Shown here: positions 9,320 to 15,502 of the stretch, piece by piece
Numbering within the stretch: position 1 is the stretch's first letter
Layout: the number at the start of each line of letters is the position of its first letter
Assembly: GCF_003755185.1 (NCBI RefSeq)
Contig: NZ_RKIC01000009.1
Coordinates: 434,001-498,000, forward strand
Length of the DNA stretch: 64,000 bases
From: Frigoribacterium sp. PhB24
GTDB lineage: Bacteria > Actinomycetota > Actinomycetes > Actinomycetales > Microbacteriaceae
Reading direction: 5' to 3'
Notes under the pieces: generated by a model
Told to the model about the DNA's origin: nothing
The model's database searches: none
Seen by the model: the letters and a program-made list of their open reading frames with translations, nothing else
Made by a program: the position numbers and the translations under genes

Positions 9320-11434
9320 TCAGACGTCGATACGGTCCCGGCTGAGGCCGGCACCCTCGATGATGAATTCCTTCCGTGGAGCGACGTCGTTGCCCATCAG
9401 CAGTTCGAACACGCGGGTCGCGTTCTCGGCGTCGTCGACCTTGACCCGCCTCAACATGCGGTTCTGACGTTCCATCGTCGTGGTGCGGAGTTGCTCCGCG
9501 TCCATCTCGCCAAGACCCTTGTAGCGCTGGATGGGGTCCTGGAACTTCTTGTTGGTGCGCTTGAGTCCCGCCAGGACACCGTGCAACTCTTTCTCGGAAT
9601 ACGTGTAGATGGTCTCGTTGGGCTTGCTCCCGGGGTGCATCACGACCACGCGGTGCAGCGGTGGAACCGCGGCGAAGACGCGACCCGCCTCGATCATCGG
9701 TCGCATGTACCGGAAGAACAGGGTGAGCAGGAGCGTCCGGATGTGGGCACCGTCCACGTCGGCGTCGCTCATGATGATGACCTTGCCGTAACGGGCGGCC
9801 TCGAGATCGAAGGACCGACCCGACCCGGCCCCCAACACCTGGATGATGGAGGCGCACTCGAGATTCGACAGCATGTCACTGACCGAGGCCTTCTGGACGT
9901 TGAGGATCTTGCCGCGGATCGGCAGGAGCGCCTGGAACTCGCTGTTGCGGGCGACCTTGGCCGTCCCGAGCGCGGAGTCGCCCTCGACGATGAACAGTTC
10001 GCTGTTCGCCACGTCGTTCGACCGGCAGTCGACGAGCTTGGCGGGAAGGGTCGAGTTCTCGAGGGCGTTCTTTCGACGCTGCGTCTCTTTGTGCGCCCTC
10101 GCGGCGATGCGGGTCTTCATCTCGGCCACGACCTTGTCGAGCACGAGGGCGGTCTGGGCCTTGTCCTCTCGTCGGGACGAGGAGAACAGCTTGGCGAACT
10201 CGGTGGCCACGACGTTGGCCACGATCGCGCGCACGGCGGGCGTGCCCAGGATCTCTTTCGTCTGCCCCTCGAACTGCGGCTCGGGCAGGCGGACGGTCAG
10301 CACGGCGGTGAGACCGGCGAGGACATCGTCCTTCTCGATCTTGTCGTTGCCGACCTTGAGTCGGCGGGCGTTGGCCTCGACCTGCTGGCGCACGAACTTC
10401 AGCAGGCCGGTCTCGAAGCCCGCCTGGTGGGAGCCACCCTTGGGAGTGGCGATGATGTTCACATAGCTGCGGAACACGGTCTCGTACCCCCCGCCCCAGC
10501 GCAGAGCGATGTCGACCTCGCACTCGCGCTCGAGTTCGGTGGCGATCATGGCGCCGCCGTCGGTGAGGACCGGCACCGTCTCGGTGTAGCTGCCTGACCC
10601 GGTGAGGCGCCACGTGTCGGTGACCGCGGTGTCGGGGGCGAGGAACTCGACGTACTCGCTGATGCCCCCGTCGAACCGGAAGGTGCTCTCGAGCGGGAAG
10701 CCGCCGTCGGTCAAGGAGCCGGAGCGCTCGTCTCGCAGCGTCAACGTGAGCCCCGGGATGAGGAACGCCGTCTGCCGAGCCCTGGCCGACAGCTCGTCGT
10801 TCTGGAACGAGGCCCCCCTGGTGAAGATCTGCCGATCGGCCCAGTACCGCACTCGGGTGCCGGTGACACCCCGTTTGGTCTTTCCCACCTCGCGGAGCAC
10901 ACTGCCGGAGACGAACGGGGTGAAGGGCGAATCGGGGGTGGGCTCGCCGTCGTCGTCGAAGGTGCCGGGCTCCCCGCGACGGAACGACATGGCGTAGGTC
11001 TTGCCGCCCCGGTCGACCTCGACATCGAGTCGCTCGGACAACGCGTTGACGACGGAGGCACCGACGCCGTGGAGGCCGCCCGACGACGTGTAGGAGCCGC
11101 CACCGAACTTGCCACCCGCGTGGAGCTTCGTGAAGACCACCTCGACGCCGCTGAGTCCCGTCTTGGGTTCGATGTCGACGGGAACACCGCGCCCGCTGTC
11201 TCGCACCTCGACGCTGTCGTCGGCATGCAGCACGACGTCGATCGTGTCGCCGTGCCCGCCGAGGGCCTCGTCCACCGAATTGTCGATGATCTCCCAGAGG
11301 CAGTGCATGAGACCACGGGAGTCGGTCGATCCGATGTACATGCCGGGACGTTTGCGAACGGCCTCGAGGCCCTCGAGCACCGAGAGGTGTCGGGCCGAGT
11401 AGTCGGAAGCCGGTGCGGACGAGGTGGGGGGCAT
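9320..11434 (-). CDS. parE: DNA topoisomerase IV subunit B
   Basis: ATPase subunit of topoisomerase IV, partner of ParC. The 704 residues show the GHKL ATP-binding site (EIIDNSVDEALGG; GRGVPVD; GGLHGVGASVVNALS), the transducer domain, and the TOPRIM domain with FIVEGDSALGTAK, PIRGKILNVQKA and the DADVDGAHIRTLLLT metal-binding motif. EGDSALG rather than the gyrase-like EGDSAGG, and the neighbouring parC, support ParE over GyrB. The gene starts at 11434 (MPPTSSAPASDYSARHL) and converges on parC across a shared terminator. Separate gyrA/gyrB would be expected elsewhere. Confidence 0.93.
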   Translation of the reverse strand: MPPTSSAPASDYSARHLSVLEGLEAVRKRPGMYIGSTDSRGLMHCLWEIIDNSVDEALGGHGDTIDVVLHADDSVEVRDSGRGVPVDIEPKTGLSGVEVVFTKLHAGGKFGGGSYTSSGGLHGVGASVVNALSERLDVEVDRGGKTYAMSFRRGEPGTFDDDGEPTPDSPFTPFVSGSVLREVGKTKRGVTGTRVRYWADRQIFTRGASFQNDELSARARQTAFLIPGLTLTLRDERSGSLTDGGFPLESTFRFDGGISEYVEFLAPDTAVTDTWRLTGSGSYTETVPVLTDGGAMIATELERECEVDIALRWGGGYETVFRSYVNIIATPKGGSHQAGFETGLLKFVRQQVEANARRLKVGNDKIEKDDVLAGLTAVLTVRLPEPQFEGQTKEILGTPAVRAIVANVVATEFAKLFSSSRREDKAQTALVLDKVVAEMKTRIAARAHKETQRRKNALENSTLPAKLVDCRSNDVANSELFIVEGDSALGTAKVARNSEFQALLPIRGKILNVQKASVSDMLSNLECASIIQVLGAGSGRSFDLEAARYGKVIIMSDADVDGAHIRTLLLTLFFRYMRPMIEAGRVFAAVPPLHRVVVMHPGSKPNETIYTYSEKELHGVLAGLKRTNKKFQDPIQRYKGLGEMDAEQLRTTTMERQNRMLRRVKVDDAENATRVFELLMGNDVAPRKEFIIEGAGLSRDRIDV

Positions 11435-11657: not shown

Positions 11658-11885
11658 ATGACTCAGATGGCCACCGACCAGACCGCCGTCGACGAGCTCG
11701 GCTCCCGCTATCAGTTGAGCGCCGCGGACCGCTGCGACAGCTGCGGAGCCCAGGCGTACATCCGCGCGACCATGGCCACCGGCGAACTCCTCTTCTGCGC
11801 CCACCACGGCGCGAAGTTCAAGGAGAAGCTGCAGCCAACCGCCATCGAATGGCTCGACGAGAGCTCCAAGCTCCTCGCCCACTGA
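11658..11885 (+). CDS. DUF7455-type small zinc-binding protein
   Basis: A 75-residue conserved actinobacterial protein. A CDSCG pair and, about 25 residues on, a FCAHHG motif give a probable Cys-x2-Cys ... Cys-x2-His zinc site. The start at 11658 (MTQMATDQTAVDEL) is set by an excellent AGGAGGA ribosome site eight bases upstream. The gene stands alone between parE (divergent) and the terminator at 11923. Function is unknown. The 223 bases upstream, shared with parE, hold both promoters but no clear consensus elements. Confidence 0.82.
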   Translation: MTQMATDQTAVDELGSRYQLSAADRCDSCGAQAYIRATMATGELLFCAHHGAKFKEKLQPTAIEWLDESSKLLAH

Positions 11886-11986: not shown

Positions 11987-12739
11987 TCACATGGCCTTGA
12001 ACGAACGCTCGAGGTTGTCGGCTATCACCTTCTGTGAGGCGGCCGCGTACTCGTCGAGCTTCACATGCCCTTCGCCCGGCGAGTACGAGATCATCCGCCG
12101 GCTCAGCGCGACCCGGAGCACCCGGTCGGTCAGAGCGGGATTGAGCGGCAGGACCGGACCCTTGAGTTGTGTGCCGAACGAGACCCCGCGCCGTACTCCC
12201 TCTCGGCCGTCGCCGTTACCGCCTCCGTAGACCACGGCCCCGAACGGTTCGGCACCCGCGCCGAGTTCGAGGTGTGCGGCATGGTCCTCGAAGCCGAACA
12301 GGGTGATCTCGTCACCCTGGTAATCGGTCGTCACCTGCAGGTAGTTCGTCCGGCGAGGAGCTCCGCGGCGGACGAGGGCGTCGAAGAAACCGACTCCCTC
12401 GACGGACTCGCCGTCGACGTCCTCGACACCGCGGCTCAGGAGCTCGAGGCCGCCTCCCACCGCCACGACCGGGACACCCGAGGCGGCGAACGACTCGAGA
12501 GCCGGCGCGAGGCGACGAGCGTCTGCGGCGACGGCCCGGACGCCGGACAGGGGACCGTGCCCCACCACGACCACGTCCGCGACGGTCGGCGTCTCATCAC
12601 CTACGCGGTATTCGAGGACGGTGCTCTCGACCCCGGCCCGGTGCGCACGGACGGCCAGCGACGTCACGTTGCCCCGATCGCCGCTCACGCCGAGCTCTTC
12701 CGGGTAGAGATGAACGATTCGGAGGACGTCGTCGCTCAC
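11987..12739 (-). CDS. gatD: GatD-like glutamine amidotransferase-fold protein lacking its catalytic residues
   Basis: In other bacteria GatD hydrolyses glutamine and hands ammonia to MurT, which amidates the alpha-carboxyl of D-Glu in lipid II. This 250-residue protein has the class I amidotransferase fold: HLYPEELGVSGDRGN at the N-terminus, VVVVGHGPLSGVRA, GVPVVAVGGGLELLS, and GTQLKGPVLPLNPALTDRVL. The normal nucleophile motif reads CGG; here the codon at 12455-12457 is GGA, giving Gly95. The catalytic His of the GxxLHGP motif is Lys193 (codon 12161-12163). No cysteine occurs anywhere in the protein, so glutaminase activity is not expected. The GTG start at 12739 overlaps the murT stop by 4 bases. 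The frame is intact and the fold conserved, so I read it as retained with a changed role, not as decaying. Confidence 0.88.
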   Translation of the reverse strand: MSDDVLRIVHLYPEELGVSGDRGNVTSLAVRAHRAGVESTVLEYRVGDETPTVADVVVVGHGPLSGVRAVAADARRLAPALESFAASGVPVVAVGGGLELLSRGVEDVDGESVEGVGFFDALVRRGAPRRTNYLQVTTDYQGDEITLFGFEDHAAHLELGAGAEPFGAVVYGGGNGDGREGVRRGVSFGTQLKGPVLPLNPALTDRVLRVALSRRMISYSPGEGHVKLDEYAAASQKVIADNLERSFKAM

Positions 12740-13995
12740 GCGGTCTTCTCCAGGTCGGGGTGGCCGAGGATGCGGCGGGCCAGCATCATCTGCTCGTAGT
12801 TCGTCACGAAATGCTTCGTGTTGTCGCTCGGGGACGGGAGCGCCCGCATGAGGCGAATCGCTTTCGAGATGTCCTCTTCGATCACGTGAACGGGGATGCC
12901 CTCGTGCTCGAGTCGCAAGGCCAACTGCCAGGCCTTCGCGCCCGCCAGGACGTCGACGTGGTCCAGGTGCGAGAAGTCGATGTCGTAGATCCACGAGATG
13001 TCGGGCGTGCCCTCGTCGATGGCCAACATGACCTGCTCGACGCCCTGCGGGAGCGCATCGAGGTTCAGCTGGAGGCTCGCCGCGTTCTTGAACATGATGA
13101 ACTCGGCTTCGTCGGCACCCAGGGACATGCGCTCTCCGCGACCGTAGGCCGGCTTCATGCTCTCGAAAGCTCGACGCACGGCCGCAGGATCGACCGGGTG
13201 CCCCAGGACCACAGAGGCTGTCTGGAGCGCTGCCGCGGCGTCGACCGCGTAGTGCAGACCGCGCGCCGGAAGCCGGACGTCGATCGGCGTGCCCGAGACC
13301 GTGATGGTGGCACCCGTGCCCGTGAGGGCGGTCACCTCGGTCTCGGCGGTCAACGAGGCGTCGGCCTCACGGCTGAAGTCGTGAGCGTTCTGAAGACCGT
13401 TGGGTGACGCCGAGACGACCTCGGGCGAGGCGCCGAAGCGGCTCACGGTCTGGCGGCCGACGGCTTGGTACGGGCCGAGGTGCTGGTCGTCGCGGTTCGT
13501 CACGACCGCGACAGTGGCCTCGGCAGCCGTGTCGGTCATCATCGTGCCGACCCGCTCGGTCTCGAAGAACCGGTACAGCTGGTCGACCTGCACGTTCAGC
13601 ATGAGGACGGTCGAGGGGTGCAGGGACTTCGTCAACTCGACGGCGAACGCCTCGTCGACCTCGATCACCCCGATGTCGTCGCGGACGCGGCCGAATGGAG
13701 TCACCTCGCGGAGGAAGGCCGACGCGATGCCCTGGGGCAGATTGGCGCCCGTCGGGTTCGTGAACACCTTGAGTCCGTGGGCGCGAAGCGTCTCGGTGAG
13801 CATCATCGTGGTCGTCGACTTGCCGTTCGACCCCAGCACGAACACGACACCGCGCTCGAACTGGGACGAGACGTGCGTGAGGAAATCGGGAGCGAGCTTC
13901 AGGACTGTCTGCCCCGGGTACGCGGACCCACCACCCCGGAGCCGGGCGACCGCCCGGACGAGGCGGCCGGCCAGCACGGGGACCAGGTAGCGCAC
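12736..13995 (-). CDS. murT: MurT-like Mur ligase (lipid II D-Glu alpha-carboxyl-activating subunit)
   Basis: MurT uses ATP to activate the alpha-carboxyl of D-Glu in the lipid II stem. The 419-residue protein has the Mur-ligase P-loop LGSNGKSTTTMM (residues 54-65), the central-domain segments VIEVDEAF and TNRDDQHLG, and a C-terminal MurT domain with YGRGERM and DISWIYDIDF, the region that contacts GatD. S. aureus-type MurT has a four-cysteine zinc ribbon inserted in the central domain; this protein has no cysteine at all and a shortened segment there. The GTG start at 13995 lies four bases after the rpoD stop, so rpoD, murT and gatD may be cotranscribed. The altered GatD partner suggests the acceptor may no longer be ammonia. 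Confidence 0.88.
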   Translation of the reverse strand: MRYLVPVLAGRLVRAVARLRGGGSAYPGQTVLKLAPDFLTHVSSQFERGVVFVLGSNGKSTTTMMLTETLRAHGLKVFTNPTGANLPQGIASAFLREVTPFGRVRDDIGVIEVDEAFAVELTKSLHPSTVLMLNVQVDQLYRFFETERVGTMMTDTAAEATVAVVTNRDDQHLGPYQAVGRQTVSRFGASPEVVSASPNGLQNAHDFSREADASLTAETEVTALTGTGATITVSGTPIDVRLPARGLHYAVDAAAALQTASVVLGHPVDPAAVRRAFESMKPAYGRGERMSLGADEAEFIMFKNAASLQLNLDALPQGVEQVMLAIDEGTPDISWIYDIDFSHLDHVDVLAGAKAWQLALRLEHEGIPVHVIEEDISKAIRLMRALPSPSDNTKHFVTNYEQMMLARRILGHPDLEKTA

Positions 13996-13999
13996 GGGC

Positions 14000-15262
14000 T
14001 TACTCGAGGTAGTCGCGGAGCGACTGCGATCGCGACGGGTGGCGGAGCTTGGCCATCGTCTTGGACTCGATCTGGCGGATGCGCTCGCGCGTCACGCCGA
14101 ACGTGTCGCCGATCTGGTCGAGGGTCTTCGGCATGCCGTCACCGAGCCCGAAGCGCATGCGGATGACGCCGGCCTCGCGCTCGGAGAGGCTGTCGAGCAG
14201 CGACTCGAGCTGCTTCTGCAGCATCGTGAAGCCGACGGCGTCGGCCGGCACGACCGCCTCGGTGTCCTCGATGAGGTCACCGAACTCGCTGTCACCGTCT
14301 TCACCCAGGGGCGTGTGCAGCGAGATGGGCTCGCGACCGTACTTCTGGACCTCGACGACCTTCTCGGGCGTCATGTCGAGTTCACGCGAGAGCTCTTCGG
14401 GCGTGGGCTCGCGACCGAGGTCCTGCAGCATCTGGCGCTGGACGCGGGCGAGCTTGTTGATGACCTCGACCATGTGCACCGGGATGCGGATGGTCCGGGC
14501 CTGGTCGGCCATGGCACGCGTGATGGCCTGACGGATCCACCACGTGGCGTAGGTCGAGAATTTGAAGCCCTTGGTGTAGTCGAATTTCTCGACGGCCCTG
14601 ATCAGCCCCAGGTTGCCCTCTTGGATCAGGTCGAGGAACTGCATGCCACGGCCGGTGTAACGCTTGGCGAGGCTGACGACGAGTCGGAGGTTGGCACCGA
14701 GCAGGTGGCTCTTGGCCCGTTGACCGTCGCGGGACACCCAGCGCAGCTCGCGCTCGAGTTCACGGCTCAGACCGGTGCTGTTGGCGAGCTTGTCGTCGGC
14801 GAAGAGACCCGCTTCGATGCGCATGGCGAGCTCGACCTCTTCGGCCGCGTTCAGCAGGGCGACCTTGCCGATCTGCTTCAGGTAGTCCTTGACCGGGTCG
14901 GCCGTCGCCCCCGTGATGGTCGTCGAGTAGACGGGCATCTCGTCGTCGTCGTCCTGCGAGATGACGAGCGCGCCCGTCGGGAGGACCTCGGGGGCGGCCT
15001 TCGTGCCCTCGCCGTCGGCGTCGTCGGCGGCGGCGGCCGGGTCGACGGCGGCCTCGCTGTCGACCTCGTCGTCAGCCGGTTCGGCCGCGGCGGCCTTCTT
15101 GGCGGCTGCCGTCTTGGCCGGAGCCTTGGTCGTCGCCTTCTTGGCGGGAGCTCTCTTGGCCGGTGCCTTCTTGGCGGCGGGGGCCGTGGTCTCGGCCTCG
15201 ACGGCCGTGTCGTCGGTCACGGCCTCGTCAGGGGCCGTGGTCGCTTTGCTGCGTGTAGCCAT
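14000..15262 (-). CDS. rpoD: RNA polymerase primary sigma factor
   Basis: The housekeeping sigma-70 factor (SigA/HrdB/RpoD). Of 420 residues, 1 to about 110 are a low-complexity Lys/Ala-rich then acidic N-terminus, with repeated AKKAPAKR-type units typical of actinobacterial primary sigmas. Region 1.2 begins at [13 protein letters not shown]; region 2 includes [20 protein letters not shown] and [21 protein letters not shown]; region 3 starts at [16 protein letters not shown]; region 4 ends with [20 protein letters not shown]. The ATG at 15262 follows GAAAGGTG. The 240 bases upstream contain a TTGACA on the minus strand, but no clear -10 partner. The murT start is only four bases downstream. 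Confidence 0.95.
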
Positions 15263-15502
15263 GCGAACACCTTTCAGTTCTCGGTACGTTCCGGACCTGA
15301 CGCGATCGTCGCGTTCACGTGCGCCGGTGGGGACGTCGACCGGCACTGGGCGTCGGCCGAATTCGGGCAGTACGAGGACCCATGTCAAGTCCTCGATCGA
15401 TTGCGCGACGGCTGTGCCGACTCGTGAACTCGATCGATGGACATGAACGGGTCCGTATCCCATTATTGCACGTCCACAGGGAGCCGGACGACGCGGGCCG
15501 CT

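Follow-up and report, generated by a model that had tools for sequence, protein, structure and literature searches.

The 64,000-nucleotide stretch of the Frigoribacterium sp. PhB24 genome analysed here (the window) carries, directly behind the gene for the primary sigma factor, a MurT-like ligase together with a GatD-like subunit that lacks the glutaminase residues (hereafter, a dead pair). This pair is probably a lipid II isoglutaminyl synthase repurposed to couple the first amino acid of the cross-bridge to D-Glu, with an unrelated enzyme of predicted CofE fold doing the same step in relatives. We know of no enzymes that build the cross-bridges of group B peptidoglycan, in which the bridge starts from the alpha-carboxyl of D-Glu. 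This carboxyl is also the target of MurT (PMC6113224). Group B peptidoglycan is stated for the Microbacteriaceae at the family level (PMC10978784), and the published wall types are B2beta for Frigoribacterium, Rhodoluna and Frondihabitans and B2gamma for Subtercola and Agreia; PMC7033078, PMC4156110 and PMC5945732 were also drawn on. No group B bridge ligase was named in the open-licence literature searched. For most of the genera named below, group B status is presumed, in part from the family-level statement, as are other genus-level types.

In the window, the MurT-like ligase (12736..13995, minus strand; P-loop GSNGKS) and the GatD-like subunit (11987..12739, minus strand; 250 aa) were assigned by homology and aligned residues, and their genes overlap by 4 bp. 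The left neighbour, sigA/rpoD (14000..15463, minus strand; start putative), lies directly upstream in the same direction, with 4 bp separating its stop from the MurT start. The usual right neighbour, a convergent gene for a small DUF7455 protein (11658..11885, plus strand), stands alone between gatD and a gene for a type II topoisomerase subunit B of the gyrB/parE type (9320..11434, minus strand), which forms the right border of the variable segment and is called parE by position only.

The two proteins carry the Pfam domains PF08353 (MurT) and PF07685 (GatD) and matched the S. aureus proteins with E-values of 4e-28 for MurT and 6e-20 for GatD, the latter over its full length and against solved GatD structures. 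Both fell below the NCBIfam equivalog cut-offs (108.5 against 800 bits for MurT and 80.5 against 400 bits for GatD), with no intact pair of the order scored as a control. The alignments confirmed the original prediction of an intact ATP-binding ligase without a glutaminase. The catalytic Cys and His of lipid II isoglutaminyl synthase were both missing from the window GatD, in which Gly95 (codon 12455-12457) aligns to S. aureus Cys94 and Lys193 (codon 12161-12163) to His189. In MurT, the ATP-binding residues (K59, T60 and E108, and N85 of S. pneumoniae) were found as K59, N85 and E112 (S. aureus E108), with a conservative change of T60 to Ser60. The hinge arginine R286, K303-N304 and D332 (S. 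aureus D349) were also retained; D332 is the triad Asp, and its conservation although GatD is dead counts against our preferred explanation. No Zn-ribbon Cys was found in the window MurT, and the DNAAD motif is lost in the alignment. Across 24 family rows of MurT, two of them of the intact type, G58, K59, N85, E112, E115 and R286 were invariant.

Among three species of the same genus, dN/dS was 0.11-0.13 for MurT and 0.13-0.19 for GatD and stops were absent, indicating that the dead GatD is a kept protein rather than a decaying one; a GatD pseudogene was thereby ruled out. The C94G and C94S forms of S. aureus GatD are inactive (PMC6113224), so no ammonia would be expected from a GatD with Gly95. 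S. aureus MurT requires GatD even when ammonia is supplied (PMC6085368), a dependence that would explain why the dead subunit is kept. At four loci from genomes of 1.1-1.7 Mb (L085, L110, L083 and L107), the GatD ORFs were only 187-224 aa with weak profile matches, as if the dead subunit were eroding there while MurT stays at about 400 aa.

The distribution of the loss was compatible with the predicted correlation with group B walls, being confined to the Microbacteriaceae among the loci read: the GatD Cys was absent at 143 of 160 family loci versus 0 of 56 outside the family, and Cys and His were both kept at 17 of 160 and 56 of 56, respectively. The position was occupied in the dead loci by Gly (106), Ala (14), His (9), Ser (8), Thr (3) or Asn (3). 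No group A species with a degenerate pair, which had been named in advance as contrary evidence, was seen among the loci read. Location also separated the two kinds of pair, as 138 of the 143 dead pairs lay at most 1 kb behind sigA (exceptions L040, L054, L097, L102 and L108) versus none of the 16 intact family pairs that could be judged (17 in all, one without room to judge). The family loci come from 150 genomes searched, in which the regions around most matches were read, with 28 Microbacterium loci, 22 loci from genomes of named records and one Leifsonia plasmid added; the 160 include a few genes counted twice (e.g., L017 and L172) as well as the locus of the window itself (L003). The outside loci represent 51 of 65 PF08353-positive genomes (31 + 20, with L213 of the 20 lacking GatD) and six genomes of named records, with at least one gene present twice (L138 and L445); group B Firmicutes lie outside the sampled taxa. 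Twelve of the family genomes read had an intact Cys/His pair alone, which, depending on their wall types, may count against the preferred explanation.

Among named records, a dead pair behind sigA was present in 21 genomes, several of them MAGs, from Salinibacterium, Subtercola, Rathayibacter, Curtobacterium (3), Agromyces (3), Galbitalea, Leifsonia, Cryobacterium (2), Amnibacterium, Rhodoluna and Aquiluna, plus five without a genus. By record title, the intact pair was found in Arthrobacter (2), Pseudarthrobacter, Paenarthrobacter, Streptomyces and Sanguibacter. MurT matches occurred in 14 plasmid records; an intact MurT/GatD on Leifsonia shinshuensis plasmid NZ_CP043642.1 (L220) adjoins an M15 peptidase gene listed as vanY-like. 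In Leifsonia sp. 71-9 (L452), the dead pair behind sigA is accompanied by a second, intact copy. The CofE-like gene was not found on plasmids. PF08353 was rejected as the survey probe because it misses many MurTs of the dead type, and profile A1 was used for the surveys instead. In families f7, f9, f10, f14 and f15 of the order, no PF08353 MurT was found in the genomes sampled and A1 gave nothing beyond weak matches, which we attribute to other Mur ligases. These results qualify a published description of murT/gatD as universal among Actinobacteria (PMC6085368).

The phylogeny of MurT (FastTree of 196 rows; IQ-TREE of 57 rows) divided the dead pairs into two groups. Dead A, the window type without a Zn ribbon, was placed among Zn-less intact MurTs with 100/100 support. 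Dead C, mostly with Zn-ribbon Cys and in most cases with the GatD motif THNALEVL, grouped with Zn-ribbon MurTs (100/98 support). A single clade of dead pairs was rejected (AU p 0.0124). On these trees, and with the long branches in dead C as a caveat, glutaminase loss arose at least twice, in two MurT subfamilies. Both types are mostly found behind sigA.

The suggestion that the pair is essential and universal did not hold as stated, as MurT was absent from 121 of the 149 Microbacterium genomes and from 29 of the 150 sampled across the family. The latter include complete single-contig genomes, in some cases with a MurT-bearing species in the same genus, and we attribute their weak N-terminal matches to other Mur ligases. 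On the strength of the 121 Microbacterium genomes, the idea that all group B species share one essential ligase was rejected. All but one of these 121 have a CofE-like gene. In the profile search of Microbacterium, 28 of 149 genomes had the pair, all with a dead GatD, 120 had the CofE-like gene, none had both and one (G478) had neither (Fisher p 2e-29). Each of the 135 genomes with a completeness of 90% or more and a contamination of 5% or less carried exactly one enzyme, MurT in 26 and CofE-like in 109. The presence of exactly one enzyme in 148 of 149 genomes argues for one shared, indispensable step.

A close CofE-like gene was found in 0 of 121 MurT-bearing versus 21 of 29 MurT-less genomes of the family. 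Named-record family genomes (n = 30) comprised 21 with a dead-type MurT, eight with CofE (seven Microbacterium and one Leucobacter) and none with both. Neither MurT nor a CofE-like gene was found in Agrococcus sediminis, which we take to be a group B species, and both were likewise missing from eight of the 150 family genomes (completeness 87% in two of the eight); these two observations count against the preferred explanation. So does a distant CofE relative present besides a dead MurT in three of the 121 MurT-bearing family genomes (G071, G140 and G164), adjoining it in G071 and G140. At loci L099, L342 and L343 of genus g60, the only genus seen with both ligase types at one locus, a distant CofE-like gene stands beside a dead MurT.

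We read the segment behind sigA in 30 family genomes, 26 without MurT, three with an intact pair only and G071, whose dead pair lies elsewhere. Directly behind sigA, 21 of the 26 MurT-less genomes encode a conserved protein of about 230 aa, which was absent in the other five (G038, G138, G080, G136 and G067). The CofE-like locus was behind sigA, i.e., in the place of the pair, in 14 of 14 Microbacterium genomes read. That an unrelated amide-forming ligase takes this place is consistent with a ligase that activates a carboxyl, most likely to add the first bridge residue to D-Glu.

Within Microbacterium, the presence of the dead-type MurT required nine changes on a MurE tree of 41 rows, compared with 13.9 when shuffled (2 of 500 as low), and is patchy but not random. 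It does not follow MurE type, because species with MurT and species with CofE share both Microbacterium MurE types seen; a link to chemotype within the genus is thus not supported, which counts against the preferred explanation. The usual MurE motifs are DNPR or of the DDNP type. Many MurE proteins of the family have DHHPR (others DFHPR or DYHPR; L268 and most family MurE loci), and a few in Microbacterium have DDNPY or DDNPA; the unusual motifs may reflect an atypical residue at the third stem position in group B walls.

The identity of the replacing enzyme was examined by profile and structure. One CofE-like protein matched PF01996 (F420_ligase; E 6e-11) and scored 30.7 against the 180.65-bit cut-off of the NCBIfam CofE equivalog. 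An AlphaFold model of another (pLDDT 83.7) gave five CofE chains as the only PDB matches under E 0.001 in Foldseek, so the replacing enzyme, as modelled, has the CofE fold. Its alignment of 15 rows had a mean conservation of 76%, compared with 41% for MurT over a more mixed set of 24 rows. A role as the F420 ligase itself is weakened by the score below the equivalog cut-off. Some Microbacterium species may produce F420, given that the genus is mentioned in a review in connection with Fgd, an F420-dependent enzyme (PMC8498797).

The gene order in Microbacterium is sigA, then murT-gatD or cofE, then a racemase gene, the DUF7455 gene and parE. An alanine racemase gene was present in eight of 10 MurT loci and four of five CofE loci read in this genus, and an ATP-grasp gene (PF14397), usually convergent, lay behind cofE in four of five loci and behind the dead gatD in none of 10; at the MurT locus L470, nothing was recognised to the right of gatD. 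Both genes were identified in tblastn searches whose query was, for each gene, a single Pfam-tested protein or a relative of it. Outside Microbacterium, some loci of each type (dead A, dead C and CofE) contain a racemase or ATP-grasp gene. In the Sinomonas atrocyanea record (L480:4230-6932), a 901-aa ORF combines an asparagine-synthase/glutaminase part (Pfam) with a CofE-like part, the latter matched by profile A3 and below the Pfam threshold. MurT was not found in that genome, and the fusion may be another solution to amidation or ligation of a wall carboxyl.

Carboxyl activation without ammonia, the one-for-one exchange and the racemase and ligase neighbours are together best read as amino-acid coupling. 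We infer the substrate, the amine, the product and the step shared by the two enzymes as follows. MurT most likely still uses ATP to phosphorylate D-Glu of the lipid-linked precursor at its alpha-carboxyl. Deprived of ammonia from GatD, it would join this carboxyl to the amino acid with which the group B cross-bridge begins, and the dead GatD would be retained as its structural partner or scaffold. In most Microbacterium and several other genera, the non-homologous CofE-fold ligase, whose gene often adjoins that of the ATP-grasp ligase, would do that step from the same place behind sigA. The bridge-ligase function originally proposed gains from a loss confined to the family, from two losses mostly at one locus and from the exchange for a CofE fold, and gives up the claim to a sole essential enzyme, since many genomes lack the pair.

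Other functions have to be weighed against this coupling. The pair might still amidate D-Glu or a different carboxyl, for instance the one on the bridge diamino acid, with free ammonia as the nitrogen source: S. aureus MurT/GatD can use ammonia directly at pH 8.5 (PMC6085368), and the active-site residues of the dead-type MurT are kept. We regard this as quite unlikely, because it explains neither why a single group B family lost the glutaminase twice, for the most part at one locus, nor the exchange for a CofE-fold peptide ligase that has no glutaminase part. A regulatory or scaffolding role in wall synthesis, without catalysis and with position as the sole tie to sigA, would suit a GatD without catalytic residues and its short ORFs in some small genomes. 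The ATP-site residues among the invariant MurT columns and the replacement by an enzyme fold argue instead for catalysis, and make such a role very improbable. The pair and the CofE/ATP-grasp enzymes could also be wall amino-acid ligases that add different or later residues or act on another polymer. The ATP-grasp counts mean that the two cassettes are not strictly equal; Rhodoluna and Subtercola, the genera with a dead-type MurT and published walls, are both of the B2 type, and a wall-modification operon of S. pyogenes holds an uncharacterised CofE-like gene (PMC13059722). Set against the presence of exactly one enzyme in nearly every Microbacterium genome and the known target of MurT, the alpha-carboxyl of D-Glu (PMC6113224), this alternative appears unlikely.

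The coupling of the first bridge residue can be extended to a more specific proposal, which, taken with all its parts, we put forward as possible but doubtful: that the group B chemotype depends on which genes occupy the segment behind sigA, with MurT/GatD leading to B2 and the CofE-fold and ATP-grasp enzymes to B1-like walls. The glutaminase would have been lost twice to free the D-Glu carboxyl, to which the dead pair would attach one D-diamino acid directly. The CofE-fold enzyme would attach glycine, which the ATP-grasp neighbour would extend with lysine or ornithine. If true, there would be two new, tRNA-independent and mutually exclusive routes to interpeptide bridges. First-residue coupling itself, if true, would mean that a glutamine amidotransferase has turned into a peptide ligase and that the CofE fold has a new role in the wall. 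Two specific, testable gene sets occupy one position across the whole family, with natural replacements between sister species.

Compared with known systems, the window pair resembles MurT/GatD of S. aureus and S. pneumoniae in its two-gene layout, PF08353/PF07685 domains, ATP-site residues and D349 equivalent, but lacks Cys94/His189, the Zn ribbon and the DNAAD motif, lies behind sigA and is replaced by an unrelated ligase in relatives. The replacing enzyme shares its fold and PF01996 with CofE, the F420-0:L-glutamate ligase (A. fulgidus 2phn and 7uld; Foldseek E 1.6e-9), but is about 16% identical, scores far below the NCBIfam cut-off and is encoded behind sigA. The interpeptide bridges of group A walls are built by Fem-type transferases. 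These enzymes are tRNA-dependent, are not known to activate a carboxyl with ATP and place the bridge on residue 3 rather than on D-Glu, and thus differ from what is proposed for MurT here. The MurC-MurF ligases act on a soluble precursor and add one amino acid or dipeptide per step. Their activation of a carboxyl by ATP followed by attack of an amino acid is the chemistry proposed for the dead-type MurT, which, unlike them, works with a GatD partner, MurT being without their N-terminal domain (PMC6113224).
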